Assembly: GCA_016935665.1 (NCBI GenBank)
Contig: JAFGQN010000086.1
Span: 1 to 33,833 of the forward strand
DNA from: Deltaproteobacteria bacterium
GTDB taxonomy: Bacteria > Myxococcota_A > Polyangia > JAAYKL01
Length of the DNA: 33,833 bases
Direction of reading: 5' to 3'
The translations under genes were made by a program, and so were the position numbers. Within the stretch, counting starts at the first letter, position 1. Each line of letters opens with the position of its first letter. Below the pieces are notes generated by a model. The model did not search any database. It had not been told where the DNA came from and worked only from the letters and a program-made list of their open reading frames with translations. Of this stretch, positions 2,141-26,501 are shown one piece after another.

Positions 2141-2173
2141 TTCAATCGAAAATGTCAGCTCTATTCAATCGAA
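2141..2173. promoter_or_regulatory. paired TTCAATCGAA motifs upstream of GH27
   Basis: TTCAATCGAA occurs at 2141-2150 and again at 2164-2173, 23 bases apart start to start, roughly two helical turns. Both sit 38-70 bases upstream of the GH27 start. The motif is one mismatch from a perfect palindrome. A third identical copy lies upstream of the GH3 gene (10468-10477). The arrangement fits a repressor or activator site; no regulator gene is in the window. Confidence 0.4.
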
Positions 2174-2409
2174 TGTGGACAGTAAGATGCGAAACAAGGT
2201 GGATAAACCGCAAATAATGATTCGTGCATTTGGGCCCAACGCAGTGCGAAAGCAGTTTGGCGATGAACCCTAAGTTTCCCGTGTCAATAGTCGATAATTA
2301 TGTATGGGCTGGTGCTGGGGGGATAAGTGGGTTTGGAATTGACGGATATTTGAGGTGTCAAAAAAAGCATGAGGGATTTGAGTTTGAACCGCGTGCTTTC
2401 ATTGATTGA

Positions 2410-2850
2410 GACAATGCAATCGTCAACGCATGGCAGTTCGAAACGGGAACAATTTCGAACACGACCACCGGAACTCAGTTGCAGCATCTCATTCCCGCTG
2501 TGATTGCACCGGGGGATCACATCGTCGCGGAATTCTTTGCGCGCTGTATCTCGGCGACTGCTGGCCAATGTCACTTTGGTGCGCTTTTGGAGATGGCCTT
2601 TTTTCCGTGGACAATTCTGGTGGACTATTTTGATTTGGTAGGAACAGAATGGCGATTCTATCAAGTGCCGCTTGTGGCGTCGACCGCGTTTTCTGCCAAT
2701 GAAACACATCTGACATTTCGACTCGGATATGAAAATCAGAGCATTCAACTCCATCCCGTGCGAGTTATGAACTATGAACCACTCGAGAATCAGAGTCGGC
2801 TGGATTGTCTTCCCAATACGACAGAGCTGTTGTCGAAACTTGAAATTTTC
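2410..2850 (+). pseudogene. N-terminal carbohydrate-binding domain relic, probably of a GH10-type xylanase
   Basis: The 745-base gap between GH27 and GH30 carries a degraded coding stretch in the plus frame. It reads NAWQFETGTISNTTTG, VIAPGDHIVAEFFARC, TEWRFYQVPLVAS, THLTFRLGYENQSIQL and RVMNYEPLENQSRLDCLPNT. These follow in order the jelly-roll domain (CBM4_9-like) found before the catalytic barrel in many bacterial GH10 xylanase-type proteins, which typically has FRLGY..Q.IE and INYG....DLP.T. A stop at 2407-2409 blocks the frame upstream. The homology ends near 2830-2850, exactly where the oppositely oriented GH30 gene ends, so the catalytic part has been lost. The GH10 assignment rests on remembered family architecture and is less certain than the domain type. 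Confidence 0.55.
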
Positions 2851-4399: not shown

Positions 4400-4550
4400 A
4401 CACGCCTCCAGAATTTTTCATGATGAATCATACTCATATAAATGTGCGCAACCCACTTCCGAACCGGGTGGTTCCATTCAAAATATTTCAATTGTTTCCA
4501 CTGAATTGCAATAATGCTGATTTATAAAGTAAATGCAGTGCGATTTTACA

Positions 4551-6899: not shown

Positions 6900-7315
6900 A
6901 ACTCCTTCCAGTTTTCGTGATGTACTGTCCACTCTTTGAAGACGGGCAGGTTTTTTTTCGTTTTTACATCTGTCTGTTCCCAGACGTTCAGGAAAGAGGG
7001 TGGCGAAAAATGAAAAAAACACCACATTTTCAGCATTTACTGTCTGACGGAAGCATCGAATCAAAACGTTTGGAAAATAATAAGACTGAAATAACTTGTT
7101 TATAAAGCCGTCAGGCGATACAGTTATCAGCGGCTCTTTTGCTTGATTTTGGGGGTGTTTGGTTGGGGACCAGTCCTGATTCGAAGAATAGTTTCACTAA
7201 AAGTCACCTTGTGTTGAAAGTTGGCCAAACAGATGAATCCATAAGGATGTTGAGCAGCAGACACCCGATTTCTCGGTGTTTGGAAATATCAGAAATTCAG
7301 TGAGAAAAAGTTCTC
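6900..7315. other. divergent intergenic region
   Basis: 416 bases between the GH127 gene (leftward) and the membrane glycosyltransferase (rightward). It must hold both promoters. A T-run at 6952-6959 and A-rich stretches around 7008-7020 are visible. No convincing -35/-10 pair, no RNA gene and no TTCAATCGAA copy were found. Confidence 0.4.
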
Positions 7316-9157: not shown

Positions 9158-9170
9158 AAATTCTTATGGC
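9151..9170. terminator. palindrome spanning both convergent stop codons
   Basis: GCCATAA (9151-9157) and TTATGGC (9164-9170) form a perfect 7-bp inverted repeat with a 6-base loop. The first arm ends in the TAA stop of the glycosyltransferase, and the second begins with the complement of the esterase stop. The two convergent genes are only 6 bases apart, so this is the only place for a shared bidirectional terminator. The stem is weak and has no T-tract in either direction. Confidence 0.4.
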
Positions 9171-10297
9171 AGATACTCTTTTATGGCTGCGTACCATACA
9201 CTGGCCATGAATTCGTACCCTTCATCACTGGGATGAATATTGTCCGTAGAGAGGCCATTGGACGGGAATCCGGTCACCATGTCCACCAGGATCATGTGGG
9301 CGCCTGCATCAATTCTGGACTGTACCACCCCGGGAACAGCGGCATTGAAAGTATCTGTTGTGGACTGCTGCATGGGGAAGGGGATGATTGTACTGACCAC
9401 AATCAACGCATCCGGCGCATCTGCGATGAGCGTGTCGAGCAGCGAACCGAGTCTTTCGGGTGCGCCACCGGGATTGTTTCCGTACATGTCGTTTGTGCCA
9501 ATATGCAACAGCACGATGTGGGGCATATCACTAAGTGCCGGGCTGGGTAGACGTCCCTTTATCTGGTCAATGGTCCAACCGCTGTGCCCTTCGTGATTCT
9601 GCGGAAATGGCTGACCATCCACCTGGGCCGGGCCATTTTTTTCTGGTCCCACAAAAGTGATGCTTTTGCTGTCCGCAAGGGCCATGCTGAACAGGGGCAC
9701 ACGGTAGCCGCCGTTACCGTTTGCACTATCTTTCATACCAAACGTAATGGAATCACCAAATGGGAGAATTTTGCAGTCGCCGCTGGCCGGGCAGGGTTTA
9801 AAGTCACTATCTGAATCGCCATCGGAGTCTGTGTCACCATCGCTGTCAGAATCCGAGTCGCCATCTGAATCTGAATCCCCATCGGTGTCCCCATCACTGT
9901 CCCCGTCCGAACCGCTGTCGGTATCCGCGTCTTTGCAGCATTTCAAATCGGCGTCATCGCAGGTGCCTGGCTGCACGGTGCCTCCCCATGAACCACAATG
10001 GGGGAGGCAATCAAATTCACAGGCGCCATCCGAATCCGAATCGGAATCGCCGTCGGTGTCAGAGTCCCCGTCCGAATCGGAATCGCCGTCGGTGTCAGAG
10101 TCCCCGTCGGAATCCGAATCCCCGTCGGAATCGGAATCCCCGTCAGAATCCGAATCCCCGTCAGAATCCGAATCCCCATCATTGTCAGAATCGCTATCCG
10201 CATCTGTTGTTGCATCGCCACCGCCGCAGGCAGAAAGCTGAGCAACCAATAAAGATATACACATGACCAGAAGGGCCCGCACAAGAAACCTGTTCAT
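9164..10297 (-). CDS. CE3-like SGNH acetylxylan esterase with a Cys-rich module between two tethers
   Basis: A 377-residue lipoprotein (lipobox LSAC, Cys24). Its order is unusual: acidic tether 31-90, a compact six-cysteine module at 92-121, a second acidic tether 124-165, then an SGNH hydrolase. Catalytic landmarks are the Ser in GDSITFG (S183), EGHSGW, HIGTND, and the Asp-His pair in [14 protein letters not shown], in the arrangement of CE3 acetylxylan esterases. It should remove O-acetyl groups from xylan or similar polymers. The Cys module follows C-x3-C-x3-C-x11-C-x6-CC and was not recognised; a small disulfide-bonded binding domain is a guess. The start at 10297 has AGGAGG 6 bases upstream. 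It is divergent from GH3, which shares the same first five residues (MNRFL). Confidence 0.88.
9803..9928 (-). repeat. second tether repeat tract of the CE3-like esterase
   Basis: The same DSDSDG grammar as the first tract, over residues 124-165, on the other side of the six-cysteine module. This suggests the module was inserted into a longer tether or that the tether was duplicated. Confidence 0.85.
10028..10207 (-). repeat. first tether repeat tract of the CE3-like esterase
   Basis: A regular 18-bp period encodes DSDSDG hexapeptides over residues 31-90. Units differ mainly at third positions and by Ser/Thr swaps. Confidence 0.88.
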
Positions 10298-10467
10298 CTT
10301 TTCCTCCTGTTTTTCGATTCGCGTTCCAGCGAGTAAATTGTATCAACTGATGGAGCCTTCGAGGCGAATAAGCTGGCTCAAAAAAAATTTTTAAACCAAT
10401 ATCAACCCGGTCAATCATTTGTGGAGTACTTTGCATTGTATTGATGTGTGGCCGACGCGATCAATGC

Positions 10468-10477
10468 TTCAATCGAA
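10468..10477. promoter_or_regulatory. TTCAATCGAA motif upstream of GH3
   Basis: An exact third copy of the 10-mer found twice before GH27, ending 19 bases before the GH3 start codon and just upstream of its GGGAG ribosome-binding site. At this position a bound protein would most likely block elongation or initiation. The 199-base gap around it (10298-10496) also serves the divergent CE3-like gene. Confidence 0.35.
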
Positions 10478-10496
10478 CGGAAATGGGAGAAAACAA

Positions 10497-12734
10497 ATGA
10501 ATCGATTTTTAATACAGCTGACCGCATGTGTTGCGATAGCGAGTCTCTGGGGGTGCTCTCCCGGCAGTGGCAGCAAGGGTGGTGATTTTGACAGCATTAC
10601 CAGCAATACGGATTCCATCGCAGATGACACGGACTCTGCGCGTTTCGAAAATGAAACCGATACCAATATCCAAACGGATGCCGATGATGACACGGACACT
10701 GTGCAAACATTGTCATTTGAGGAACGCGCCACGGCATTGGTCTCACAGATGACGCTGGCGGAGAAGGTCTCTCAATTGGGGCATCGCGCCCCGGATATTT
10801 CAAGACTGGACATTCCCAAACACAACTGGTGGAATGAAGCGTTGCACGGCGTGGCCCGTTCGGGAATCGCGACGGTGTTTCCTCAGTCCATCGCGCTGGC
10901 TGGCACGTTTGATGTGGAATTGATGCATACCGTGGCGGATGTTATTTCCACTGAGGCGCGTGTAAAGCACAATGAAGATGGCAAAGCGTTGACGTACTGG
11001 AGTCCCACGGTGAATCTGGCTCGCGATCCCCGGTGGGGCCGCAATGAAGAAACGTATGGAGAAGATCCGTTTTTGGCATCGCGGATGGCGGTGGCATTTG
11101 TTAAAGGCATGCAGGGGGATGACCCAACTTATATAAAAACGGTTTCCACGCCCAAGCACTTCATCGCCAACAACGAAGAGATTCGCCGGCATACCGGTTC
11201 ATCGGATGTGGATGAGCGCAACCTTCGGGAATTTTACATGCCCGCGTTCGAAGCTGCGGTGGTGGAGGGGGGCGCCATGTCGGTGATGTGTGCCTATAAC
11301 GCGCTCAATGGCATCCCCGCCTGTGCCAATTCATGGCTGTTAAAAGATGTGCTGCGCGACAAGTGGGGATTCACTGGATATGTGGTGTCGGATTGCGGCG
11401 CAGTCGCAGACATTGTGGATAATCATAATTACGTGGCATCCGATATTGATGCATCTGTTGCCGCCATTACTGCCGGCACCGATTTGAACTGCGGTTCCCG
11501 CTATCAGCGGGATTTGCAGGAAGCGGTTGAAAATGAAGTGATATCAGAAGATGTATTGGATACCGCACTGGTGCGTCTGTTTAGCGCGCGATACCGATTG
11601 GGATTGTTCGATGATGCGGAGGATGTCCCCTTTTATGCCATTTCCCCCGACAGCCTGGATAGTCCTTCCCATCAGGCGCTGGCGCTAGATGTGGCGCAAA
11701 AATCAATGGCGCTGCTGAAGAATGATGGTATCCTGCCGCTGGATGCAGAAAAGCTCAATTCGGTGGCAGTTATTGGCCCCCATGCGGATGCTATTGTATT
11801 TGGCGGGTACAGCGGCGATGCGTCCAATCCCATTTCGCCGTTTGACGGTATCGAAGAGCGTTTGGCTTCTTCAGGTGTGACCGTATCCTATGCGCCAGGC
11901 AGTACCTTGACGGGCGTGATTGATGACGACGCGCTTGCTGAAGCGGTGGCTCTGGCAGAAGCAGCTGATGTGGCCATTGCAGTGGTTGGCACTGACCTTT
12001 CCATTGCCAACGAGGAACAGGATCGCACCGATATTACCTTGCCAATGCCGCAGGAGGCGTTATTGCAGGCAGTGTTTGAGGCCAATCGCAATACCATCGC
12101 CGTGCTGGTCACCGGCGCGCCCCTTGCGATTGAATGGGCCAACGACAATCTGCCGGCCATTCTCAACGCCTGGTATGGCGGCCAGGCCGCAGGGGAGGCC
12201 ATTGCCGCTATTTTGTTTGGTGACGTAAATCCCAGCGGCCGACTGCCACAGACGTTTTACCGTTCCGTAACGGATTTGCCACCCTTCGATGACTACGACA
12301 TCATCGGTCAAAAACGCACCTACATGTTTTTCGACGGTGATGTGCTCTATCCGTTTGGCCACGGGCTAAGCTACACCACGTTTAATTACAGCGATATTGC
12401 GCTGTCGGCAAAAACCGTCTCTGTTGAAGACGTGGTGACTGTATCTGTGGATGTCACCAACAGCGGCGCAATGGATGGAGATGAAGTGGTGCAGGTGTAT
12501 GTTCACGATGTTGAAAGTGCTGTTCCATCTGCATTGAAAAAGCTCAAAGGCTTCCAGCGGGTGGCTATCCGGCATGGGGAAACCGAAACGGTTTCTATTG
12601 ATTTAAAGGTATCAGATTTTGGATTCTACAATGTCGCTGAAAAAAAATTTGTTGTGGAACCGGGTGAGTTCGAAATCCAGGTGGGCGCCTCATCCGCTGA
12701 CATCCGTGCGAGCGCCACGCTAACCGTTGAGTAG
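10497..12734 (+). CDS. GH3 beta-xylosidase / alpha-L-arabinofuranosidase, lipoprotein
   Basis: A 745-residue lipoprotein (LWGC, Cys20) with a short, mixed Asp/Thr/Ser tether (30-68), much less repetitive than in its neighbours. The (beta/alpha)8 domain starts near 72. HNWWNEALHGVA, YWSPTVNLARDPRWGR and CAYNALNG are signatures of the xylan 1,4-beta-xylosidase branch of GH3. The nucleophile is D299 in GYVVSDCG, and K220-H221 in STPKHF is the conserved pair. The alpha/beta sandwich follows, with the probable acid/base Glu in IANEEQDR, and a fibronectin-III-like C-terminal domain ends the protein. It should release xylose (or arabinose) from xylo-oligosaccharides made by the GH30 enzyme. The start at 10497 is preferred over an upstream in-frame ATG (10419) because of GGGAG 7 bases before it and the signal peptide. 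It is convergent with GH2, 151 bases apart. Confidence 0.93.
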   Translation: MNRFLIQLTACVAIASLWGCSPGSGSKGGDFDSITSNTDSIADDTDSARFENETDTNIQTDADDDTDTVQTLSFEERATALVSQMTLAEKVSQLGHRAPDISRLDIPKHNWWNEALHGVARSGIATVFPQSIALAGTFDVELMHTVADVISTEARVKHNEDGKALTYWSPTVNLARDPRWGRNEETYGEDPFLASRMAVAFVKGMQGDDPTYIKTVSTPKHFIANNEEIRRHTGSSDVDERNLREFYMPAFEAAVVEGGAMSVMCAYNALNGIPACANSWLLKDVLRDKWGFTGYVVSDCGAVADIVDNHNYVASDIDASVAAITAGTDLNCGSRYQRDLQEAVENEVISEDVLDTALVRLFSARYRLGLFDDAEDVPFYAISPDSLDSPSHQALALDVAQKSMALLKNDGILPLDAEKLNSVAVIGPHADAIVFGGYSGDASNPISPFDGIEERLASSGVTVSYAPGSTLTGVIDDDALAEAVALAEAADVAIAVVGTDLSIANEEQDRTDITLPMPQEALLQAVFEANRNTIAVLVTGAPLAIEWANDNLPAILNAWYGGQAAGEAIAAILFGDVNPSGRLPQTFYRSVTDLPPFDDYDIIGQKRTYMFFDGDVLYPFGHGLSYTTFNYSDIALSAKTVSVEDVVTVSVDVTNSGAMDGDEVVQVYVHDVESAVPSALKKLKGFQRVAIRHGETETVSIDLKVSDFGFYNVAEKKFVVEPGEFEIQVGASSADIRASATLTVE

Positions 12735-12885
12735 ATATTTTTTGCACATTTATCTGGCGTACGTCGGTTGCGTAACCTTTCGCTGAACATAGGCGGATTC
12801 ACTCCCTTGGAGGTCGTCGACGAGGTGGGGTTGCATCACACCGTTCTTTTCAGGATTATAATGTGACGCATTATTGATATTGAAC

Positions 12886-15561
12886 TTATTTCGCTGTAAT
12901 GGTTACCTCTCCCGCAGTCAATCCCTTTGACGATGCCGTCAGTTTTATTTCGCCTCCATCTCCGGTGGATTGAATGATAACCATCACCTTGCCACTGAAG
13001 GCGGAACGCGAATTCCCTTTGTATGATTCGTGGCTGGTGGCGTCTCCGTTATCGACGCCTATAATTTTACCAGGACCTGTCACTGAGAGTTCAATTTTAT
13101 TATTTGCTTTAGGCACAAGGATGCCGTCGCCATCAACCACATCCACTGTCACAAACGAAAGGTCACGACCGTCCGCATTGATGGTGTCTCTGTCGGCGTG
13201 CAGCGAAAGTGCGGCAGCAGCGCCAGCTGTTTTGACCACATCGGTCACCGCGTCACCGCCGCGCGTGGCTTTGGCTTCCAGTGTTCCTGTTTCGAATTTC
13301 ACCGTCCAGTCCAGATGCCCCACAGACGGGTCAACGTTTTTGGAGCCAAGGGATGTCCCGTTCAGGAACAGCTCCACGCTGTCGGCGTTGCTGTACACCA
13401 TTACTTTAACGTTGCTTCCAGGAGACCAGCTCGTCCACTCCATTGGCACAATGTGCACCATGGCAGGACCATCATAGTTCCAGTGGCTCTGATAAAAGTA
13501 AAAAATGTCTTTGGGAAAATTGGCCGTGTCAATGGCGCCAAAGTATGAACTTTTGGACGGCCATTCATAAGGTGTGGGCTCACCAATGTAATCGAACCCG
13601 GTCCAAATGAATTCCCCGGCAATCCAGGGGCGGGTGTTGACATTTTTCCACGATGTTTCCGCAGTATGCCCCCATCCGGCCGCAAAGTTGTCGTAGGAAG
13701 ACGCCTGATTGTTATTGTTGTTGTAAATGCCGCGACTGCGGAAGGCAGACGATGATTCGCTGGCAAACATTTTCCAATCGGAATGGGCGGAGTGCACCGA
13801 GTCGTATCTCTCCGGTGCGTAGTTGATGCCAACGAGATCTTCGAGTCCGGTGATGTCGCTTTCGGGTACCCACGCGGCATATGCCTGGGTAATGGGTCTG
13901 GTTTTGTCCATGGAGTGAATGGCATTTTTTAACTGATTCACTACGTTTTTGTCAGCCGCCTGGGGCACCTCATTGCCAATGCTCCAGATTATCACACTGG
14001 GATGATTGCGGTCACGGGCAACGAAATCCGCCATGTCTGTATCTGCCCACTCTCTGAAGAATCTGGAATAATCGTGAGCAACTTTCGAGCCGTACCACAT
14101 ATCAAACGCTTCATCCACAACGAGAAAGCCCATGCGATCGGCAAAGTCGAGCAGTTCCGGTGCAGGCGGGTTGTGGGACGTGCGAATGGCGTTGGTCCCC
14201 ATCTTCCTGAGTATCTCCATCCGCATTTCAATGGCGCGATGATTAACCGCGGCGCCGAGGGCCCCCAAATCGTGATGGAGACAGACGCCGTTCAGCGTCA
14301 TGCTTTTGCCGTTGAGGGAAAACCCCTTGCCGGCGTCGAATGCGAAACTTCGGATGCCAAAGGGGGTGCGGTATGTATCCACCACGTTCCCGTCCACTGT
14401 CACTGATGTGACAACAGCATACATGGCAGGAGAGTCGGGGGACCACAGTTTGGGACTGGCCACAGTGCCATTGAGAGTGAATTCCTTTTTGTCTCCGCCG
14501 TTGATGGACTGCGCCGATGCCGAAACAGTGTCAATTTCTTTGCCGCTGTCGTCCAGAATGACGCTCTCAACACTCACTGACTGAGCGCCAGCTGACTCAT
14601 TCTGCACGGATACACTGATATTTACTGTGGCGCTCTGATTGGAGATTTCGGGGGTTGTGACAAAAACACCGGTATATGCCACATGGATTGGGTCAACTTT
14701 TTTTAACCAAACATGGCGGTAAATCCCGCTTCCGGAATACCAGCGACTGCTGGGCAGCTCATTGTTGACGCGCACCGCCAGCACGTTTTCGCCGTCAAAC
14801 ACAACTTCATCGGTAATGTCACATTCAAACGACGAATAGCCATATGGGCGATTGCACACCTCGTTGCCATTGAGCCAGACGGTGCTGTCCATATAAACAC
14901 CGTCAAACTGCACATAAATTTTCTGTCCCGCATCGCCTTGCGACAATGAAAAGTATTTCCGATACCAGCCCAGGCCGCCGTCCAGATATCCGCCTCCCGC
15001 ACCGGCGGCAGAATTCTGATTGAAGGGCAAAGCCACGCTCCAGTCATGAGGCACATTCAGGTCTTCGAAGGACGAATCATCAAACATTTGGTTTTCCGCG
15101 CCGCTGGCGTTGCCCAGGTGAAACTTCCATTCATTGTCCAGGCTCACAGTGGTAGCGCGGGCGCCGTCGTACGCATTGACAAATGACGATACTGTGATGT
15201 CACTGTCCGAGTCCGAGTCCGAATCCCCATCCGAATCCCCATCTGCGTCGCCGTCCCCATCCGAATCCGAATCGCTGTCTGTGTCGTTGTCCGCGTCTGT
15301 ATCTCCGTCGGCATCTGAATCGCCGTCACTGTCACCATCGCCATCGGTATCTGTATCCCCATCCCCATCGCTGTCTGAATCTGTATCCCCGTCTCCGTCT
15401 GCGTCGGTATCCATGTCAGCGCCGGTGTCTGTGTCTGTGTCTGTGCCTTTGGATTTGGAATCGTTTGAGCATGCCGTGACGATGACAATCATCGTGCAAA
15501 GCAGCGTTACGAAAAAAGCCAGTCTCCAAACTGTTGTGCGGGATTTGTTATTTTCGGCCAT
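12886..15561 (-). CDS. GH2 beta-galactosidase, tethered lipoprotein
   Basis: An 891-residue lipoprotein (VTAC, Cys31) with an acidic tether at 40-121. GH2 domains follow in order: sugar-binding jelly roll (about 135-290, [10 protein letters not shown]), immunoglobulin-like domain (about 295-400) and TIM barrel (about 410-690). The acid/base is E531 in WSIGNEV. The nucleophile is probably E602 in ASESSS, with [13 protein letters not shown] just after, as in the DUF4982-containing beta-galactosidases. A DUF4982-like segment ([12 protein letters not shown]) and an invasin-like Ig domain ([14 protein letters not shown]) end the protein. It should remove beta-galactosyl residues from arabinogalactan or xyloglucan branches. 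Beta-glucuronidase is less likely given the domain tail. It is the last gene of a minus-strand run, 47 bases after GH43. RBS AAGGTGA precedes the ATG. Confidence 0.9.
15199..15444 (-). repeat. repetitive tether-coding tract of GH2
   Basis: Degenerate 6-base units encode DGDSDGDTD-type sequence over residues 40-121, ending in a run of pure DSDSDS next to the catalytic part. Confidence 0.85.
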
Positions 15562-15608
15562 TAGTTGTTCACCTTTTTACGGACAGGACATTTAACGACA
15601 TCTGTTGA

Positions 15609-17279
15609 TTACGGGATAAATTTCCACCAGTTAAAATTGAACAGGGTGTTGCCGTTGCCTGTAAATTTGAAATACACATCGTGCATGCCGGTGACCCCAC
15701 TCACATCACAGGAAACCGTTTCCCATGATTGCCAGTCCCCGGTTCCCAACACATCACAGGTGCCGGCCAGTGTGCCGGACTCGCCATCCAGGCGAATTTC
15801 AATCTTGCCGCCACCTCCGGCGGATGCCACCCGTGCTTCAAAGCTGCCGGCGCCATTTTTAAAATTGACGCCGAGCACTTTAATCCAGTCACCGTTGCTG
15901 ATCTCCGACACATTCATGCCCCCTTCACTGCAGGGTTCGGTCTCAATGCCGGATTGCCATGCCATGGTTTCGGCTTCCTGCTGTATGTACGGATTCATGC
16001 TGCCCACTCCGGGACGTTTGGCGCTGTTCATGGATATTTCCGGAATTGAACCGTCCGATCTGTATGTGAATTCCGCTGCACAGACAGAGCGGTGGAAGCC
16101 GCCGCCGCCGGGCAGGGCGCCGTTGTGGTAAAACAAATACGATTTGCCCTTGAAGTCCACTACGCCGGGGTGATTGGTGAAACTGCTGCCCGCGGTAGGC
16201 ATGACCACGCCACCGTACGTCCAGGGGCCTGTGGGGCTGGAACTGGTGGAGTATCCGATGTGCTCGGAAATGGGCCCCGCTGCAAATACCATGTAATAAA
16301 GGTCGTTTCGCTTGTAGAACCACGGACCTTCCTCGTAAGTGGTGGGGTAGTCGGGATCCGATTCGCTGCGCGTACCAAAACTGGCCGGAGTCTGATTTAC
16401 GTTCTGAACCTGACCGGAATACGATGTCATATCCTCGTTCAGCTTCACATACTTTAATTGGGGATTTCCCCAGTACAGGTATGCCTGCCCGTCGTCATCA
16501 ATAAATACAGTGGGATCGATGTTGTCCCATCCACCGTCGATGAGGGGTTTGCCTATCGCGTCTTTGAATGGCCCCTCCGGGGTATCCGCAACCGCCACGC
16601 CAATTCCTTTTCCACCACTGGTTTTCACAGGCACATACAGATAAAACCTGTCATTTCTCGGAATGCACTGTGCGGCCCACGCATCGCCCTTAGCCCAGCT
16701 GAAATCCTTGTAATGAATGGGGGAGCCGTGATCGGTCCAGTTCACCATGTCTGTGGTGGAGTAGGTGCGCCAGTCATACATGGTAAAAAAGTTATCCACC
16801 AGATTGTCTTCGTCGTGGGTGGTATATACGTAGAGTCGGTCTTTGTAAACCATGGGCGCCGGGTCAGCAGTGTAAAGGGTTTGAACAATGGGATTGTCTC
16901 CCATTTCGCCGGAATCTTCGGGAAAATCGCCTGGCGCGTCACCGTCTGAATCGCCATCACTGTCACTGTCGGAATCGGAGTCCGTATCCGAGTCCGTGTC
17001 GCCATCCGTATCGCCATCCCCGTCGGTATCCGAGTCCCCATCCGTATCCGAGTCCCCATCCGTGTCCGAATCGCCGTCCGTGTCTGAATCGCCGTCCGCA
17101 TCCGAATCGCTGTCACTGTCGCCATCACTGTCGCCATCGCCATCGCCATCACTGTCGCCGTCCGAATCAGAATCTGAATCGCCGTCAGATGAGGAATCTT
17201 CCGTATCGGATCCGGATGAACTGCCACAGGAGGTCCATATAAACAAAGCAATAATTAAAAAAAAGAGTCTGGTTGTCAT
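15609..17279 (-). CDS. GH43 arabinofuranosidase/xylosidase with C-terminal CBM6, tethered lipoprotein
   Basis: A 556-residue lipoprotein (WTSC, Cys18) with an acidic tether at 24-114. A five-bladed GH43 propeller follows (about 128-425) with the expected inverting triad: base D139 in TADPAP, pKa modulator D255 in NIDPTVF, acid E317 in YEEGPW. The architecture and motifs resemble subfamilies acting on arabinoxylan side chains. Residues 433-556 form a CBM6 ([11 protein letters not shown], then [14 protein letters not shown], ending FNFNWWKF), which in this family binds xylan or other beta-glycans. It lies between CE6 (46 bases upstream) and GH2 (47 bases downstream) on the same strand, so co-transcription is likely. 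The ATG at 17279 has AAAGGA about 6 bases before it. Exact activity (arabinofuranosidase or beta-xylosidase) cannot be decided from motifs. Confidence 0.9.
16938..17210 (-). repeat. repetitive tether-coding tract of GH43
   Basis: Includes a clear tandem series of 18-bp units coding DGDSDT (about residues 62-88), flanked by DSDSDS and DGDG runs. Confidence 0.88.
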
Positions 17280-17325
17280 TGGTCTATCCTTTGGCCTCGC
17301 CTGTGATTGGCAGGCGGCACGCTGC

Positions 17326-18453
17326 CTATTTACTCAACTTGAGGGCGTCTATCATGGATTCGCCGTACCGCTGTCCGAATATCCGAACCCCCGCCGCATC
17401 AAAGTGGTAGTCGTCAACGCCGTTTAACCCTTCTGCCGAAACCCAGTGCGCATTGGAAATAACGTCGGGCAGCTGGTGAATGAGATCGTTGTGTGCTTTG
17501 CAGCAGCCACTGTACAGCAGTTCGCCGGCAATAAATGGAATATCGCCAAGGTCCAGATCGCTTCGCAGGTCTTCCACAATGCCTTTTACTTTATCCACCC
17601 AAACGGCGCGCAGTTCGTCGGTCCAGTCGGATTCGCCCTGGTGGAAAATGATACCGTCGATGCGACCACCCTCATTCTGTGCCAGTCTGGCGCGCTCAAT
17701 CACCCAGTCGTATGCGCTGTCCCAGTGATTGTCGGGCGGAATGGTGAACTCACTGCGGCGCTCTGACACCACACCCTTTCTGAAAAAATCGATGTCCACA
17801 CCGGGGATGGCGCAGGGCACCAGACCGATGGTATGACCTTCGGGATACGCTTCAATCAGCGTTTTTCCAAAATAGTCCCCAGGGCCAATGCCGTTGGACC
17901 AGCAGGAATGCAAAGGAGGCGCAGCAAGATCCCATTCATTGTACTTGCGACCGGTGCTCGCACAGTCGTCATACCCCAGCACCTTGACGCGCTCATTTTC
18001 CTGTTTGTCTTCGCTGTTTGGCGTTTGTCCTCCGGCCATGTTGGATTGGCCAATGAGAAGGAAAACATGGAAAACAGAATCTGTGTCATTTTCATTTCCG
18101 GTATCTGAACCGGTGTCTGCATTACTTTCGGTATCCGCATTCCCGTCGCTATCTGAATCGCCATCGTTGTCCGAGTCTCCGTCACTGTCGGTGTCGCCGT
18201 CGGTGTCACTGTCTGCATCGGAATCTCCGTCGCTATCTGAATCGCCATCTGTATCGGAATCCCCGTCGCTGTCCCCGTCTGAATCGCCATCGCTATCGCC
18301 ATCTGTATCTCCGTCCGAGTCCCCGTCGCTGTCGCTGTCGCTGTCGGCGTCGGTGTCTGAAGTTCCATCTGATGTTGAGTCTGAGTCCGACGAAGAAGAG
18401 CATGCTGTAAATATTGCCAACCCAATTAGTAAAAGGAATAAAATTTTCTTCAA
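17326..18453 (-). CDS. CE6-type carbohydrate acetyl esterase (SASA domain), tethered lipoprotein, TTG start
   Basis: A 375-residue lipoprotein (FTAC, Cys18) with a 105-residue acidic tether (22-126) and a SASA/CE6 esterase domain. Visible landmarks are the catalytic Ser (S137) in [10 protein letters not shown], the oxyanion segment HQGESDW, and the His in [11 protein letters not shown] with GQRYGES. CE6 enzymes deacetylate xylan; sialate O-acetylesterases share the fold but the context favours plant glycans. No ATG precedes the signal peptide. An open frame extends to a TTG at 18483, but the TTG at 18453 gives [18 protein letters not shown] and has AAAGG 9 bases upstream, so I prefer it. It lies 46 bases upstream of GH43 and 182 bases downstream of the SGNH gene. 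Confidence 0.87.
18076..18390 (-). repeat. repetitive tether-coding tract of CE6
   Basis: One of the two longest tethers here (105 residues, equal to that of the SGNH esterase). DGDSDGDSD blocks dominate the centre, and the C-terminal end shifts to an Asn/Glu/Thr-containing sequence ([15 protein letters not shown]) before the catalytic domain. Confidence 0.85.
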
Positions 18454-18635
18454 CTCACTGAACCTTTCTAAAAAGACATCCAAATTGAATGAGGTTGCAC
18501 GACACAGTCAGCCAACGCGTATGTGTTTTCGCCCCGTGGAAAACGGGCGGAATTCGCATCAGATTTTTGTGAAATTGATGAATCGGGCACGAAGGAATTC
18601 ATCCTTTGGAATTCGATTCGGTATGCGCCGACAAT

Positions 18636-19664
18636 TTATTGTGCACAGGCGCCGCCTTCTTTGGGCCAATTGTTTATCAGCGCGCTAAACCACTTGTCCG
18701 CCATTTTTTCTTCGCCCCCTTCATTGGGGTGAATACCATCGAATGTATCCCCGTTTGCGTTGAAGCCTTCGTTCTGGTTCACCACAATCACCGGTGATAT
18801 GTCGGTGTTTAATTCTTCTGCAAGGCCGCCAATTTGGCCGTTGATGTCATTGAGCGACTGCTGGGATTGCGTGGATGGAATGAGCCGGGCCAGCAGAATG
18901 ACTACGCGCTCGTTGTCCCCGCGCAGCAAACCAATTACTTTTTTCAATTCATCCATGGTGCCCTGTGTGGGTTGCGATTGAAACGCGTCGTTTGTCCCAA
19001 GATGAATCAGCGCCACGTCCGGGGTATAACTGTTCAGCCAGCCAGGCAGATCATTCAGTATCTGATCCACCCGCCATCCCCAATGGCCTTCATGGTCCTG
19101 GTCGAATGCGGGATTGGGATAGCTGGGACTTCCGCCGAAATTCTCTTTCAATGACCCGATAAAATCGAACTCGCGGCCTGCAGCTGTCAATTTTTCAAAC
19201 AGCGGATATCGATAACTTTTATGAGTGTTATTGGATTGCGTAATGGAATCTCCCAGTGGCAAAATACAGATTCGAGGGGGTTCGGCGTCGCTGGCGCTTT
19301 CAGATTCAAAATCGCCTTCGGAATCGCTTGCGGTCGCCGTATCCGCCATTTCGGTGTCGGAATCACCATCGGAATCGCCATCTGAATCACTGTCGCCATC
19401 GGAATCGCTGTCGCCATCGGAATCGCCGTCTGAATCCGAGTCCCCATCCGTGTCGGAATCCCCATCCGTGTCGGAATCGCCGTCCCCATCTGTGTCGGAA
19501 TCCCCGTCCGTGTCGGTGTCCGCGTCTGAATCTGCATCTGCGTCACTTGTGAAAGAAGCGTCGTCGGAATCATCGCCTGTGTCGTCTGAGTCGGTTTGAC
19601 ACGCGGAAAGCGTGACGGCGAGCGCAACAAAAATGAGGAACAAAAGCAACACAGAATATCTCAT
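18636..19664 (-). CDS. SGNH/GDSL esterase (CE3-like), tethered lipoprotein
   Basis: A 342-residue lipoprotein (LSAC, Cys22) with tether 24-128 and an SGNH hydrolase. S140 lies in LPLGDSIT, followed by HEGHWGW, HLGTND and the Asp-His pair in DGIHPNEGGEEKMA. It is a paralogue in type of the esterase at 9164-10297 but lacks the Cys module, and it ends in a short tail with one Cys (GGACAQ). It probably removes acetyl or other acyl groups from polysaccharide. The frame runs far upstream through sequence antisense to the divergent cytochrome gene's tether, but only the ATG at 19664 gives a signal peptide, with AGGAAAG about 9 bases upstream. As the first gene of the minus-strand run, it may share a promoter with CE6, GH43 and GH2 despite a 182-base gap. 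Confidence 0.87.
   Translation of the reverse strand: MRYSVLLLFLIFVALAVTLSACQTDSDDTGDDSDDASFTSDADADSDADTDTDGDSDTDGDGDSDTDGDSDTDGDSDSDGDSDGDSDSDGDSDSDGDSDGDSDTEMADTATASDSEGDFESESASDAEPPRICILPLGDSITQSNNTHKSYRYPLFEKLTAAGREFDFIGSLKENFGGSPSYPNPAFDQDHEGHWGWRVDQILNDLPGWLNSYTPDVALIHLGTNDAFQSQPTQGTMDELKKVIGLLRGDNERVVILLARLIPSTQSQQSLNDINGQIGGLAEELNTDISPVIVVNQNEGFNANGDTFDGIHPNEGGEEKMADKWFSALINNWPKEGGACAQ
19281..19595 (-). repeat. repetitive tether-coding tract of the SGNH esterase
   Basis: Regular DGDSDT and DGDSDS units occupy the centre (about residues 50-103). The sequence then becomes Ala/Glu/Ser-rich before the catalytic domain. Confidence 0.85.
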
Positions 19665-19853
19665 ATCAATTCTTTCCTGCAGAGGCGATGATACTTCCTT
19701 AATGTTGTACCACGCAGCATGCAACACGGGTGTGCACTTCGGTTTTAAAAAACGGGTAGAAAAATTCAAGCATTGGCGAGTTTTGTAATGTGAATAACTG
19801 TCGAGCGCACTTCCAAAGAAAACAAAGCGTAAGTTTTTCCTTTTTTGCGAAAC

Positions 19854-19878: not shown

Positions 19879-19956
19879 GCGCTGGTGCACACATCCTGAC
19901 GAAAGTTCATTCGGTTACCGTTGCCAACCGATACTGATAGGCGACAGGAGGTTTTG

Positions 19957-22107
19957 ATGAGAACTTTACGTTTGGTTTTCACTGTTTGTACGTTTCTGCT
20001 GATGCTGTTGACGCTCGCCTGTTCCAAAGATGGCAGAAGCAATGGTGACGAGGCATCTGATCTGGACAGCGACAAAGGTGGTGATGGGGACGGCGATGGG
20101 GATGGCGATGGGGATGGTGATGGAGACGGCGATGGGGACGGCGATGGTGATGGGGATGGGGACGGAGACGGTGATGGGGATGGGGACGGTGACGGCGATG
20201 GGGACGGCGACGGCGATGGGGACGTGGATACGGATCCGGATGCGCCACTGAAATTCTCCAAATATCGTTCACCATTCGATGTGGCGTATTCCCCCGATGG
20301 CAGCCTGCTGGCGGTATCGGATGCCGCTGTCGGTGCACTCTACGTGCTCGACGCAAAGAGCGATATGATTATCTGTACGGCATCGCTGGAAGGATTTGGC
20401 AAAGGATTGGCGTGGCAGAGTAATCAGTCCGTGTGGGTATCGGAATATGACAACAGTACCATTGCCCAGATTGACGCCGTCCAATGCAGCATATCGAGTC
20501 GAATTGATGTGGGGCCCAAGCCGGTGGGTATTGCCATATCCGAGAATACCGCTGTGGTGGCCGAGTATGGATTGGGGAGCATTTATATTGTCAACCTGGA
20601 GACCGGTTCGGTTGAAAAAAATATTCCTTCCACGAAATATCCACAGTTTGTTGAAATAACACCAGACGGTAAAACCGCTCTCGTTGGTCATCATCTGCCA
20701 ACTGGCGATGCGATGGAGTATGGCATGGCGTCGACCATTTCCGTGGTGGATCTCGCTACTCAGAGTGTGTCCGGTGAAATTTCGATGCCTTTTGGCTCCA
20801 GCAATCTGAATCAGATTCGATGTTCCCCGGATGGCCGGTATGCGTATGCAGTGCACACACTGGGCCGGGTAACGCTGCCCACCACGCAGATTACAAAGGG
20901 GTGGATAAACACCAATGCCCTGTCTATTATCGATTTGAATTCCAAATCCAGATACACCACTGTTCTGTTGGATCGGCTGATGAAAGGGGCTGCAGATCCG
21001 TTTGGAATCGCCATTTCACCGGATGGTGACCGATTATGGGTCAGTGTCGCGGGAACAAAACAGGTTATTCAGGTGGAACTGGACCGATTGCATACGCTGT
21101 TGAAGGAAGGCGTTGGGGACGGGGGACGTTATAATCCATATGCCAGCAGAGATAAACGGCGATATGAACGGCCGTATTCGGATATTTGGCTGCAGATTGC
21201 CGCGGACCCATCTAAAATTGACGTGCTGCAGGATGATCTCGGTGCTTTGTGGGGCGCCGGTCTGTTGAAGATTATCGAAACCGATGGCGACGGCCCAAGA
21301 GGAATTGCTATCTCTCCAGATGGCAATCGCATTGCGGTGGGGGCATACTTCGATGGTACGGTCACCATGATTAACGCTGCGGAAAATGCGGTAGAACAGA
21401 CTGTTTCTCTTGGCGATATGCCCGAAAAAGATGCAGCACGGAGAGGTGAAGAGCTGTTTCACGATGCCACCACCACGCAGCAGATGTGGCTGAGCTGTGC
21501 CACCTGTCACCCAGGGGGACGCGCAGATGCGTTCAACTGGGATTTGTTGAATGACGGTATGGGGAACTCCAAGAACACCAAGTCGTTGATTTATTCGCCA
21601 TTGACTCCCCCCATGATTGCCACGGGCGCCAGACCGGATGTGGATGCATCCATCAACGCGGGTTTTCGGTATATTAAATTTGTCGTGCCCGAAGCGTCGC
21701 AACTGGCTGAAATTCGCGCCTATCTGGATGAAAAACAGGTGGAGCGCAGTCCGTATCGTAAAAATGGACGTCTCTCAAAAGATGCCCTCGCTGGTAAAAA
21801 GCTGTTTGAAGGGGAAGCCGAATGCGCCAAATGCCACAATGGACCCATGTTCACCGATCTCAAATCCTATGATGTAGGGACCAAAACAGACATTGATAAA
21901 ACCGGAACATTCGATACACCCACCGTCCTGGGAATGTGGAGCACAGCGCCATATCTGCATGACGGTTCAGCGGTTACGCTCATGGATGTGTTGACGACGT
22001 TCAATACCAAAGACGAGCATGGTGTGACCTCACATCTTTCCGAAACGCAATTAAAACAACTGGAAGCGTATATGCTTGAGATGGACTATCGGGACATCAC
22101 TAAATGA
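19957..22107 (+). CDS. beta-propeller / di-heme (MauG-CcpA-like) cytochrome c lipoprotein
   Basis: A 716-residue lipoprotein (LTLAC, Cys22) with a nearly pure (Gly-Asp)n tether from 41 to about 88. YVTN/NHL-type beta-propeller repeats follow (about 95-490; PFDVAYSPDGSLLAVSD, PRGIAISPDGNRIAVG). A C-terminal cytochrome domain has two CXXCH sites: CATCH (514-518) and CAKCH (623-627). TPTVLGMWSTAPYLHDGSA near the end is characteristic of di-heme cytochrome c peroxidase/MauG relatives. It probably carries electrons or acts as a peroxidase-like oxidase at the cell surface; the substrate is unknown. The start at 19957 has AGGAGG 5 bases before it; an upstream in-frame ATG (19921) is a poorer choice. 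It is followed after 10 bases by the second cytochrome gene, clearly one operon. Confidence 0.88.
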   Translation: MRTLRLVFTVCTFLLMLLTLACSKDGRSNGDEASDLDSDKGGDGDGDGDGDGDGDGDGDGDGDGDGDGDGDGDGDGDGDGDGDGDGDGDVDTDPDAPLKFSKYRSPFDVAYSPDGSLLAVSDAAVGALYVLDAKSDMIICTASLEGFGKGLAWQSNQSVWVSEYDNSTIAQIDAVQCSISSRIDVGPKPVGIAISENTAVVAEYGLGSIYIVNLETGSVEKNIPSTKYPQFVEITPDGKTALVGHHLPTGDAMEYGMASTISVVDLATQSVSGEISMPFGSSNLNQIRCSPDGRYAYAVHTLGRVTLPTTQITKGWINTNALSIIDLNSKSRYTTVLLDRLMKGAADPFGIAISPDGDRLWVSVAGTKQVIQVELDRLHTLLKEGVGDGGRYNPYASRDKRRYERPYSDIWLQIAADPSKIDVLQDDLGALWGAGLLKIIETDGDGPRGIAISPDGNRIAVGAYFDGTVTMINAAENAVEQTVSLGDMPEKDAARRGEELFHDATTTQQMWLSCATCHPGGRADAFNWDLLNDGMGNSKNTKSLIYSPLTPPMIATGARPDVDASINAGFRYIKFVVPEASQLAEIRAYLDEKQVERSPYRKNGRLSKDALAGKKLFEGEAECAKCHNGPMFTDLKSYDVGTKTDIDKTGTFDTPTVLGMWSTAPYLHDGSAVTLMDVLTTFNTKDEHGVTSHLSETQLKQLEAYMLEMDYRDITK
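20077..20226 (+). repeat. (Gly-Asp)n tether-coding tract
   Basis: Six-base units GGNGAY repeated about 24 times. Unlike the tethers of the glycosidases it contains no Ser or Thr, so it could not be O-glycosylated, but it keeps the acidic flexible character. Confidence 0.9.
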
Positions 22108-22117
22108 GGTAATGCAT

Positions 22118-24295
22118 ATGAGTACTTTAATAAAAAATATCACTATCGCAAAAGCACTCAAAACCCCGGTGGCCGTCATTTTTTCAGCGGCAGCTGCAGC
22201 GGTGCTTCTGTCTTTCAGTGGCACGGCTAAAGCGCAGATTAATCTCAATGACCCACTGTTTGATTTCGATGACATTCTGTTTGTCAGTCGTCCCTTTCTC
22301 GATGCTGTGAATAATCATGGGGCAGGTGGGCACATGTGTGATCAATACCATGGATTCAATGCATCTGAGGGAGGGTTGTATATTTTGGAAAATGCGTTTT
22401 CCGGCAATCCCAATGTACGCAATGTCCTTGAAACCGCAACTGTGGAAAATGGGCGGTTCCAGGGCAAGCGTTTGGATTATGGTGGTTTTTTGTCGCCGGA
22501 TTTGAGCTACGATGGAAAGCAAATTCTGTTCGCGTGGACCGAACGCGGCCCATTTTCGCCCACATGGAATGAGAAGAACACTTTTCATATTTTCAAGGTA
22601 AATGTGGATGGCACTGGATTGACACAGCTCACCGATGGAAAAAACAATGATTTCGATCCGGTGTGGCTGCCGGATGGGCGAATCGTTTTTATCTCGGATC
22701 GCCGTGGTGGTTACGGTCGCTGTCATCCCAGACCCGTGCCCACATATACGCTTCATATTATGAATGACGATGGAGGCAATATTCGAACCATCAGCTGGCA
22801 CGAGACCAACGAATGGCATCCCAGTGTGGATAACAACGGTATGATTATTTATACCCGGTGGGACTATGTGGACAGGGGCGAAAATCAGATGCACGGTCCC
22901 TGGATTACCACACCGGATGGTCTGGACGCACGCGCTGTGAATCTGAATTTTCCCAACGATGAATGGCGATTGCCCAGAATGATTGCTGAATTGAGAGCCA
23001 TTCCGGGTTCGGATAAATACATGGGAATCGCCATGGGGCATCACTCGCAAAGTTATGGCTCCATCATCACCGTGGACCCGAATATCGAAGACGATGACGG
23101 CATGGGCCCCATTGAGCAGATTACTAAGGACGCCGGATTTCCGGAGTCCACTGTTGGTATGAATGCCGACCAGTACTACGCCACACCGTGGCCATTGAGT
23201 GAAGATCTCTTTTTGGCAGCGCACGAACCGGATTATTCCGAATTTCGCATCAGAGATTTGCACTACGGCATTTACGTGGTGGATCGATGGGGCAACAAAC
23301 AGGAGATATTCAGAGACAACAGACTGTCTGTGCTGGATCCCATTCCCGTAAAGGCTCGCCCCAAACCGCCTTCTGTAACGGGACTTTATTTCGACCCCAT
23401 GCCTTCAGCGTTTGAGAAGAATGCGACGGTATCGGTCATGAATGTATATGACAGTCTGATGCCGTTTGATGAGAACGTCAAAATCAAGCAGCTGCGCATA
23501 GTTCAGGTGCTGCCCAAAACCTCGCCCAATAACGCCAATCCGCGCGTGTCTTACTTTATTAATCGCAATACGCGGCAGGTGTTGGGGACAGTTCCGGTGG
23601 AAGACGACGGCAGTGCTTATTTTCAGCTTCCCTACGACGTTCCAGTGTATTTTCAGGCGCTGGATGAGGACGGTCTTGCGTATCAGTCCATGCGCTCGGA
23701 AACATATGTTCCCAAAGGAAACAGTCATATGACCTGTCAGGGCTGTCACGAGCCCAGATATCGGGCGCCTGCCATTCCCAAAAGTTATCCCAAAGCGCTG
23801 CTTCGGGATCCGTCTCCCATCACTCCCGAAACTGTACCCGGTGCAAAACCGTTCAGTTATGCGCGTCTGGTGCAGCCGGTGCTCGAGAAGAATTGTGTGA
23901 GCTGTCATAACGGCAATCGCGCTTTCGGTCTTGGGTCTGCACAGGCGTGGGATACGAAGTTTTACGAATCGTACACCAATCTGTACAAAGGTGGGTATGC
24001 ATTTGGCTACGACGATAGAAATTACGTGCCGGAAATTAACAGGGCGTATTGTACAAAGGATGGCGGTGACGGGCCGGAGTTTTACGCATATCCAAGGTCT
24101 ATCCCTGGTCGCGTGGGCGCTCGGGAATCCAAACTTTACCCGCTCCTTAAGGGCGGTCATGAGAATGTTCAGCTGAGCGCGGAGGACTTGCATCGCATCT
24201 CACTGTGGCTCGACTTAACGTCTCAGTTCCTCGGCACCTACCATGACGTGGAAGCCCAGGCCAACGGTGAAGTGGTGGAACCGTTGTATTATTGA
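22118..24295 (+). CDS. exported hydrazine-synthase-alpha-like multidomain cytochrome c
   Basis: A 725-residue protein with a cleavable Sec signal (GTAKA before Gln40), so soluble or periplasmic, not a lipoprotein. The middle has TolB/PD40 propeller motifs (LSPDLSYDGKQILFAW, NDFDPVWLPDGRIVFISDRR). A beta-rich domain and a C-terminal region follow with heme sites CQGCH (540-544) and CVSCH (593-597). This layout is that of the HzsA-like family, widespread in non-anammox bacteria and of unknown function there. No gene for the other hydrazine-synthase subunits is present, so that activity is not implied. The ATG at 22118 has GAGG about 8 bases upstream; an ATG 6 bases earlier is too close to it. 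It probably receives electrons from, or assembles with, the preceding cytochrome. Confidence 0.85.
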   Translation: MSTLIKNITIAKALKTPVAVIFSAAAAAVLLSFSGTAKAQINLNDPLFDFDDILFVSRPFLDAVNNHGAGGHMCDQYHGFNASEGGLYILENAFSGNPNVRNVLETATVENGRFQGKRLDYGGFLSPDLSYDGKQILFAWTERGPFSPTWNEKNTFHIFKVNVDGTGLTQLTDGKNNDFDPVWLPDGRIVFISDRRGGYGRCHPRPVPTYTLHIMNDDGGNIRTISWHETNEWHPSVDNNGMIIYTRWDYVDRGENQMHGPWITTPDGLDARAVNLNFPNDEWRLPRMIAELRAIPGSDKYMGIAMGHHSQSYGSIITVDPNIEDDDGMGPIEQITKDAGFPESTVGMNADQYYATPWPLSEDLFLAAHEPDYSEFRIRDLHYGIYVVDRWGNKQEIFRDNRLSVLDPIPVKARPKPPSVTGLYFDPMPSAFEKNATVSVMNVYDSLMPFDENVKIKQLRIVQVLPKTSPNNANPRVSYFINRNTRQVLGTVPVEDDGSAYFQLPYDVPVYFQALDEDGLAYQSMRSETYVPKGNSHMTCQGCHEPRYRAPAIPKSYPKALLRDPSPITPETVPGAKPFSYARLVQPVLEKNCVSCHNGNRAFGLGSAQAWDTKFYESYTNLYKGGYAFGYDDRNYVPEINRAYCTKDGGDGPEFYAYPRSIPGRVGARESKLYPLLKGGHENVQLSAEDLHRISLWLDLTSQFLGTYHDVEAQANGEVVEPLYY

Positions 24296-24635: not shown

Positions 24636-26501
24636 TTACTCCACCAGGATATTGCGGCAGGAGGATGGGCAATCGTCATTGTTGGAGAAGTTGCCGTCGT
24701 CGCAATCTTCGTGTTCCTCCTGAAGAATACCGTCGCCACAGTACCCATCGTACTTGCATTCCGCGTTGCACTGAGCGTATCCACCTTCGTTCACGCCGTC
24801 ATCACATTCCTCGCCGAGGCCAAGGATGCCATCTCCGCACTCTGGTGTACAAACGGAACGGGCGGAGTTGAATCCTTGCAGAGTCAGCTTGAACGACGAT
24901 CCGATGGTACGACGCTCCGCATGGAATACGCGAATCTCGTATACGTTTCCATCTTCCATTGCAAACGAGTTGTCGGCGGAGATGGTCACACTTCCAAATT
25001 CGGGGCCGTGAACACCTCCCAAATCAACCGCCAGCTGACCGTTGACAAAGACCCATACGTCGTCGTCCCCGGCGAAATAGAATGTGGCTTCAGTGGATGA
25101 ATCGTAAAGGAACCAGTAGGTGACTTCTGATGTGAAATAAAAGTTGTGCTGCGTTTCTTCGCCCGTGACCTCCTCTTCAGTCATCCAGCCGCCACCCATG
25201 CCGCGGGAATTGGACCAGCCGTACTCCGGTGGGACACCCGCATCAAAAAACTCTGCAGACGGCATGTCGTCCACCGGGAAGAAGAGAGGATTGCCATCAT
25301 ACTCAACTGTGGGCGGCGGACATCCTTCTTCCGGATCTGAGGGACATGGAATGCAACCATCTTCGAGGCAATCATTGACGTCATCCGCGATGGGCTCCAC
25401 CGGAATGGCAACGCCCGTCTGTTCATTTACTTCGTATCCCAACCAGCGCTCTCCGTTCTCGCCATAACGATTGACGAATCCGCCCTCGCCATTGGGATAG
25501 AGCACCAGTTCACTGGCCATAAAGGGAACCGTATCCCCGAAGAGTTCCGGATCGTTGGTATACCAGTCTGAAAGTTGCGTGACACAACTGTCCTCAGCCT
25601 TCTCTGTCGCAACTGGACGCCCATCGTCGCCCAGTTCCGTTTCCACCAGACCGGTGATGAGTTGCTGTCTGCAGTTTCCGCTCGTTTGAAAATCGGGATG
25701 TTCCTCCATAAAATCTCTGAAAATAACCGGTACGCGCAAGACACAGTCCTCATCGTCACATGTTTCCTGAACGCACGTGTATCCTGGCTCCACTTCACAA
25801 TCGGCAGAGCAGCCATCGCCGGAAACCGTATTTCCATCGTCGCACTCTTCGCTTTCGCCAAGAACCAGGCCATCGCCGCACTCGGATTTGCAGGCGCCAC
25901 CGGAACAGTCCGGCTCCCGTTGACAAATAGCTGAGCAACCGTCAAATGGCACCAGGTTTTCGTCATCGCAGCTTTCAGCGCCTTCGGCTTTTCCATCGCC
26001 GCATTCGGTTTTTATGCAATCGCTGGGTTCATCCACACATTTGTATCCCATTTCGATTTGACATTTCTCGTTGCAGCCATCACCGTTTTCGTTATTGCCG
26101 TCATCGCACAATTCAGGGGGTTGTATCTGACCATCGTCACACAGCGCGATTCGATGGCAACTTTTACCGGGGGGAATACATGCATACCCTTCGGTTACTT
26201 CAAGGCAGTCCGCCGAACATCCGTCACCATCTTCGGTATTACCGTCATCACAGGCTTCGTTCTCTTCGAGCTGACTGTTGCCGCACGCCTCGACATCCTC
26301 GGTTTCCTTTTCCTTCTCAGTCTCCTTTTCCTTTTCGGTTTCCTTTTCGGTTTCGACTTCCGTTTCAGTATCCTCAGTCGCGGAATCTTTTTCCCGTTCG
26401 GTTGGAATATCGTCACCAGGGTCTATCGTCTGTTTCTCCGTTCCGCATGCAATCAAAAGGCAGGACAGAAAGACAGACATAAAACAGTAATTGATTTTCA
26501 T
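24636..26501 (-). CDS. fibro-slime domain lipoprotein with DUF4215 Cys-rich repeats
   Basis: A 621-residue lipoprotein (LIAC, Cys19). A Glu/Lys/Thr tether (46-70, TEKEKETEKE-like) replaces the Asp/Ser tether of the enzymes. Four Myxococcus-type Cys-rich repeats (about 72-250; pattern CGDG...E.CDDGN..DGDGCS..C) follow. The fibro-slime domain (about 256-545) includes FAGDDDVWVFVNGQL, AVDLGGVH and the FHAERRT segment, a PA14-related fold with a probable Ca-binding acidic loop. Two more Cys-rich repeats (554-621) end the protein. In Fibrobacter, proteins with this domain are linked to cellulose adhesion, so a surface adhesin for plant fibre is a reasonable inference. RBS is AAGGGA, 11 bases before the ATG. 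It stands alone, with 401 bases of non-coding sequence upstream. Confidence 0.88.
   Translation of the reverse strand: MKINYCFMSVFLSCLLIACGTEKQTIDPGDDIPTEREKDSATEDTETEVETEKETEKEKETEKEKETEDVEACGNSQLEENEACDDGNTEDGDGCSADCLEVTEGYACIPPGKSCHRIALCDDGQIQPPELCDDGNNENGDGCNEKCQIEMGYKCVDEPSDCIKTECGDGKAEGAESCDDENLVPFDGCSAICQREPDCSGGACKSECGDGLVLGESEECDDGNTVSGDGCSADCEVEPGYTCVQETCDDEDCVLRVPVIFRDFMEEHPDFQTSGNCRQQLITGLVETELGDDGRPVATEKAEDSCVTQLSDWYTNDPELFGDTVPFMASELVLYPNGEGGFVNRYGENGERWLGYEVNEQTGVAIPVEPIADDVNDCLEDGCIPCPSDPEEGCPPPTVEYDGNPLFFPVDDMPSAEFFDAGVPPEYGWSNSRGMGGGWMTEEEVTGEETQHNFYFTSEVTYWFLYDSSTEATFYFAGDDDVWVFVNGQLAVDLGGVHGPEFGSVTISADNSFAMEDGNVYEIRVFHAERRTIGSSFKLTLQGFNSARSVCTPECGDGILGLGEECDDGVNEGGYAQCNAECKYDGYCGDGILQEEHEDCDDGNFSNNDDCPSSCRNILVE

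Follow-up and report, generated by a model that had tools for sequence, protein, structure and literature searches.

The window analysed here, a stretch of 33,833 nucleotides from an 8.16-Mb Myxococcota genome, contains a two-gene unit at positions 19957-24295 whose predicted products make up a full alpha plus beta-gamma set with four haem motifs, related to all three parts of the hydrazine synthase (HZS) of anammox bacteria. Because the pocket of haem gamma-I has been rebuilt, the pair most probably forms a sister redox enzyme with a different small-molecule substrate, rather than a hydrazine synthase.

The first gene ends with a stop at 22107 and, after 10 bases, the second begins with an ATG at 22118. 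The original prediction had described a GD-tethered lipoprotein with a propeller and two CXXCH motifs, followed by an exported HzsA-like protein with two more, and the open reading frames, the motifs and a PF18582 match all bear this out. The second protein combines a signal peptide with a TolB-like propeller, the PF18582 domain and a pair of CXXCH motifs, and genes for cytochrome c assembly are present in the genome. The features of the locus, in window positions, are as follows.

19946..19951, + strand: AGGAGG ribosome-binding site of the beta-gamma gene (sequence)
19957..22107, + strand: HzsB-HzsC-fusion-like lipoprotein, 716 aa, ATG at 19957 (NF052342, E 7e-43; 5c2v_B, E 1.2e-26; 5c2v_C, E 1.2e-21)
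19957..20022, + strand: lipoprotein signal peptide, ending in a TLAC lipobox with Cys22 (inspection)
20080..20235, + strand: Gly-Asp tether, an acidic spacer of ~25 GD repeats, residues 42-93
20263..21411, + strand: beta-like seven-bladed propeller (5c2v_B match; model pLDDT mostly 75-94)
21496..21510, + strand: gamma haem I motif, CATCH
21619..21621, + strand: Ala555, where HZS has His144 and CCP/MauG has Trp (alignment)
21823..21837, + strand: gamma haem II motif, CAKCH
22018..22020, + strand: His688, aligned with HZS gamma-His332, the distal ligand of haem gamma-II (alignment; ligand identity from PMC12607021)
22118..24295, + strand: HzsA-like exported cytochrome, 725 aa from the ATG at 22118 (PF18582, 69.5 bits; 5c2v_A, E 8e-13)
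22118..22234, + strand: Sec signal peptide of the alpha-like protein (inspection)
23480..23752, + strand: HZS_alpha middle domain (PF18582)
23735..23761, + strand: alpha haem I motif, CQGCHEPRY, with its CXXCH at 23735-23749
23894..23908, + strand: alpha haem II motif, CVSCH
24158..24160, + strand: His684 (numbered from the codon at 22109), invariant in the group and at most one residue from HZS alpha-His772 (alignment)

As for the first protein, its earlier label of a MauG-like propeller gives way to that of an HzsB-HzsC fusion. The propeller matches the beta chain of the HZS crystal structure and the haem domain matches the gamma chain (E-values in the list above), in the same beta-then-gamma order as in the Scalindua-type HzsB-HzsC fusion. 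A seven-sequence profile scored 159 bits against HzsB and 111 against HzsC, versus 52 against CCP and 46 against MbnH, and a Foldseek search with the propeller model placed 5c2v_B first among 350,542 PDB chains (TMt 0.82). In a tree of the gamma domain, the window protein, its orthologue from a second genome of the genus (G001), three Bacteroidota proteins and the HzsC of K. stuttgartiensis fall together on one side of a 95/90 branch, with 14 other Myxococcota propeller-MauG proteins on the opposite side; since HzsC sits on a long branch, this grouping is supportive, not final. Judged by sequence and predicted fold, the first protein is thus closer to HzsB plus HzsC than to MauG, and the two genes encode a single set of HZS-like subunits rather than a MauG-like protein beside an isolated HzsA.

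The second protein was correctly recognised as HzsA-like. Its PF18582 (HZS_alpha) match stands at 69.5 bits against a cut-off of 26.6, and its match to 5c2v_A, although modest at 51 bits, is backed by Foldseek, in which 5c2v_A came top of the same number of PDB chains, five orders of magnitude before TolB. Across the subunit matches, E-values range from 1e-12 to 1e-43, which excludes chance. The single-chain AlphaFold models are weak, with mean pLDDT of 45 for the alpha-like protein and 55 for the beta-gamma protein, and are too poor to judge haem geometry.

The gamma domain departs from that of HZS. In HZS, haem gamma-I has a third cysteine (Cys165), His144 and Asp168, haem gamma-II is liganded by His229 and His332, and haem alpha-I by Tyr591 (PMC12607021 and the main text of PMC12758564). 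In our alignment, the window protein has no Cys in the region of gamma-Cys165, and the segment that contains Asp168 is missing from its gamma domain. The place of His144 is taken by Ala in the window and in G001 and by Ser in Bacteroidota. This is also where MauG and peroxidases carry their inter-haem Trp, which is present in the other Myxococcota propeller-MauG proteins aligned, and the gamma-I pocket therefore has neither the HZS residues nor the Trp. The equivalent of gamma-His332 (His688), on the other hand, is kept in every group member whose sequence includes the C terminus, and both alpha CXXCH motifs are invariant in the group, as is the distal His of haem alpha-II.

This pocket also bears on the idea that the pair works as a surface di-haem peroxidase, or in protein modification of the MauG/MbnH kind using peroxide or oxygen, for which the HzsA-like protein would be partner or substrate. 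MauG and MbnH do act on partner proteins, and the gamma domain shares with them and with bacterial cytochrome c peroxidase the di-haem CCP_MauG fold. However, the replacement of the inter-haem Trp, the His rather than Met or Tyr that is the likely distal ligand of haem II, and the nearness of the gamma domain to HzsC rather than to CCP, MbnH or MauG in profile scores and in the tree make this reading rather unlikely.

The genome of the window belongs to the same genus as the MAG "Deltaproteobacteria bacterium ZodW_Metabat.284" and to the same class as two fen "Myxococcales" MAGs. The recurrence of the pair was surveyed in 96 genomes of relatives. The window-type alpha gene was found in four of them, namely the window's own genome, G001 (83% identity) and the fen genomes G061 (48%) and G066 (46%). 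Window-type beta-gamma genes occur only in the same four, at 288 bits or more versus at most about 104 bits elsewhere; that is, the two genes co-occur in 4 of the 96 genomes and neither is found in the other 92. G001 has both genes in the same order, with 73% identity for beta-gamma, and the tether of its beta-gamma protein is of an SD type. In G061 and G066 the pair is split between contigs, each gene being cut off at the contig end that faces its partner; this agrees with the same order, and adjacency there is presumed. In a plasmid collection, three records, one of Parabacteroides distasonis and two of A. tunicatorum, gave both the top alpha matches and the top full beta-gamma matches. The two genes form a real, conserved unit.

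These Bacteroidota clusters (P. distasonis NZ_OY725748, A. tunicatorum pAT2 and pAT4) are 30-33% identical to the window pair in beta-gamma and 26-28% in alpha, over most of the length, and they share the unusual gamma pocket (PPSMISGxR versus PPMIATGAR). They differ in that alpha is fused to a SUMF1 domain (plus NPCBM in P. distasonis), in having no GD tether, and in their neighbours, which include IclR, Rid/chorismatase-like and cupin-like genes and, in P. distasonis, the cytochrome c assembly gene CcsA; the cupin-like protein of P. distasonis is a lipoprotein by inspection.

Three further genomes of the phylum have more distant beta-gamma relatives at 244-357 bits, one of them with eight extra haem motifs, and no alpha gene was found beside these. 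PF18582 matches occur in 31 of the 96 Myxococcota genomes, those beyond the window type being only 20-31% identical, and blastp of the neighbourhoods fetched found no beta-gamma relative near the distant PF18582 genes. A scan of genome contigs returned only orthologues already known and one remote match, and a search of the phylum Bacteroidota returned a different, HzsA-only type. Many Myxococcota (L035, L040, L042, L043, L045, L048 and L049) carry two distant HzsA-like genes, one of about 750 aa and one of about 1000 aa, separated by about 4.4 kb and with no HzsBC-like neighbour. In Bacteroidota, HzsA-like genes without HzsBC (L124:8763-11033, L133 and L134) adjoin predicted exported proteins.

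The original prediction had suggested, as one example of a role, an oxidative attack on plant polymers in the place where the tethered glycosidases act. In the window, a cluster of CAZyme lipoproteins lies on one side of the pair and a fibro-slime protein on the other. The cluster, at 598-19700, consists of tethered lipoprotein glycoside hydrolases and esterases (GH27, GH30, GH127, GH3, GH2, GH43-CBM6, SASA and two GDSL), and the fibro-slime/PA14 lipoprotein, at 24636-26501, has DUF4215 (myxo disulfide) repeats and is convergent to the pair. In G001, a sigma-54 regulator and a histidine kinase flank the pair on one side; on the other come a small gene and then a GH9-CBM3 lipoprotein. Among the neighbours examined in G061 and G066, a subset of open reading frames, none was recognised as a CAZyme; sigma-54 regulator, Kdp, Rid-like and propeller genes were seen there instead. 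CAZymes thus lie near two of the four Myxococcota copies, in the window and two genes downstream in G001, and the predicted CAZyme association holds in these two genomes but not in the fen genomes, so that the link is weak. As for the tether, which had been taken as a hint that the lipoprotein may act where the glycosidases do, it is common to most lipoproteins of the window and to many elsewhere in the genome, and is therefore no sign of a common function. A role on plant polymers is favoured by the large CAZyme cluster next to the pair, by the GH9-CBM3 gene of G001 and by the NPCBM domains that distant alpha homologues carry. Yet proximity by chance is likely in a genome where tethered proteins abound, and no polysaccharide oxidase is known to have this architecture; we consider such a role quite improbable.

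It is similarly doubtful, to about the same degree, that the proteins are outer-membrane cytochromes for extracellular electron transfer and no enzyme at all. Exported multihaem proteins with a lipid anchor would suit such a function, as would the exported neighbours of the distant Bacteroidota HzsA-like genes, but the pair has four haems only and is clearly similar to an enzyme with open haems, and no porin or multihaem partner adjoins it in the window.

The remaining question is how far the pair resembles anammox HzsABC itself (PDB 5C2V; NF052339-NF052342). The likeness extends to the alpha, beta and gamma parts, with two CXXCH motifs each in alpha and gamma, to the position of beta-gamma upstream of alpha, to the fusion of beta and gamma as in Scalindua, to the gamma-His332 equivalent and to the CxGCH of haem alpha-I. 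However, the NCBIfam equivalog cut-offs are missed widely (50 of 800 bits for alpha and 147 of 1250 for beta-gamma), the gamma-I residues are missing as described above, and the window pair has a lipid tether and no known hydrazine dehydrogenase partner. A search for HAO/HDH-type proteins (PF13447) found no match in the genome, although control genomes gave none either. The position of alpha-Tyr591, which aligns without a gap, holds Tyr in the window and in its two fen orthologues, His in G001 and Asn in Bacteroidota. Since the position is variable, Tyr is no proof of HZS chemistry, and the match, once considered a strong sign of it, was dropped because of the His in an orthologue that is 83% identical. 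The original prediction took the organism to be non-anammox, and nothing points to anammox. That the pair is a true hydrazine synthase, which would use NO and ammonium to make hydrazine outside anammox bacteria, is extremely improbable, and this identity was rejected on the cut-offs and the active-site residues.

The reading that we favour is that of a sister enzyme. It is highly probable, going by homology, that the two proteins form an exported alpha plus beta-gamma complex homologous to HZS. The beta-gamma fusion would be anchored by its lipid and long acidic tether, with the soluble alpha subunit docking on it to give four haems c per unit. The bis-His haem gamma-II may exchange electrons with an outside carrier, as in HZS, the chemistry would begin at the open haem gamma-I, and a second site, perhaps reached by a small intermediate, would be provided by haem alpha-I. 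For complex formation, the electron path and the tunnel, we infer from HZS how the sister enzyme might operate.

A hint as to the substrate of this putative enzyme comes from the neighbours of its homologues. In G061, beta-gamma has as neighbours a gene of the Rid-family/chorismatase-like type and a weakly matched Mala_s_1-like propeller gene, and in G066 the only Mala_s_1-like gene of the genome is found beside it. The same Rid-like type stands beside beta-gamma in P. distasonis and on both A. tunicatorum plasmids, and in G272 and G374 it lies no more than about 6 kb away; a Mala_s_1-like gene is found on pAT4 too. The Rid-family/FkbO-chorismatase-like genes near HzsBC-like genes are at L112:2430-3638, L119:3037-4134, L120:1585-2766, L121:1-433, L150:8168-9487 and L152:7094-8503, and the Mala_s_1-like propeller genes beside beta-gamma at L113:1508-3016, L120:3708-4574 and, weakly matched, L112:3617-5155. 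Close to the pair, no Rid-like gene turned up in either the window or G001. A PF21168 search missed known Rid-like copies and is therefore no sign of absence from genome G000. Rid proteins hydrolyse reactive imines and enamines, and the recurrence of a Rid-like gene beside beta-gamma in several lineages therefore suggests a reactive nitrogen intermediate, with an imine- or enamine-like product. A nitrogen-containing substrate is a speculative guess, possible but not probable. The fuller version, in which an HZS sister enzyme at the cell surface does nitrogen-bond chemistry, both in heterotrophic Myxococcota and in Bacteroidota of the gut, and the Rid/chorismatase-like protein handles its reactive product, we regard as unlikely.

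HZS-like genes outside anammox bacteria are known already. A 2023 paper described them in Phycisphaerae and suggested a wider family acting on other substrates (PMC10732223), and Hagglund et al. 2025 (PMC12758564, main text) assigned co-located non-anammox sets of alpha and beta-gamma to four clades, I-IV. Clades I-III, as described there, resemble the window pair in having a co-located alpha and fused beta-gamma and in HZS active-site residues that are reported not to be conserved. They differ from it in an alpha gene that lies upstream, an FG-GAP gene and a Trp in the place of His144, with extra haems on the beta-gamma protein in clade I and without haem alpha-II in clades II-III, whereas the window pair has beta-gamma upstream, Ala in that place and haem alpha-II; no FG-GAP domain was found in the window genes scanned. 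It could belong to the same group as clade IV, whose residues the main text leaves undescribed. That text makes no mention of Myxococcota and brings in Bacteroidota only as beta-gamma matches and enrichment companions, and a search of the available literature found no paper on HZS in gut Parabacteroides. Of the original proposal of a candidate for an undescribed system, what stands is the variant, which is new in that no description of it was found in the literature; sets of this kind outside anammox bacteria had been published. An HzsBC-like protein with eight extra haem motifs, of the clade I type, is encoded at L152:3-3203, in another class of the same phylum.

HZS is often called unique and a de novo origin has been proposed for it, its non-anammox relatives having been recognised only in 2023 and 2025, with no known function. 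The present group retains alpha, beta and gamma in full, together with a gamma-I pocket of a third kind, and its recurrent Rid-like neighbour hints at the chemistry. One relative belongs to P. distasonis, a culturable anaerobe, and the group makes the role of the HZS ancestor testable at the bench. If nitrogen-bond chemistry by a sister enzyme were confirmed, HZS-type two-site haem chemistry would extend well past anammox and into a cultivable gut commensal. An HZS_alpha match alone calls for caution before an organism is called anammox. Viral contigs yielded a single alpha gene, for a planctomycete-like HzsA protein with an NPCBM domain and a third CXXCH, encoded on an IMG/VR contig (L137:6984-10586) beside phage-like genes, probably in host DNA flanking a provirus.
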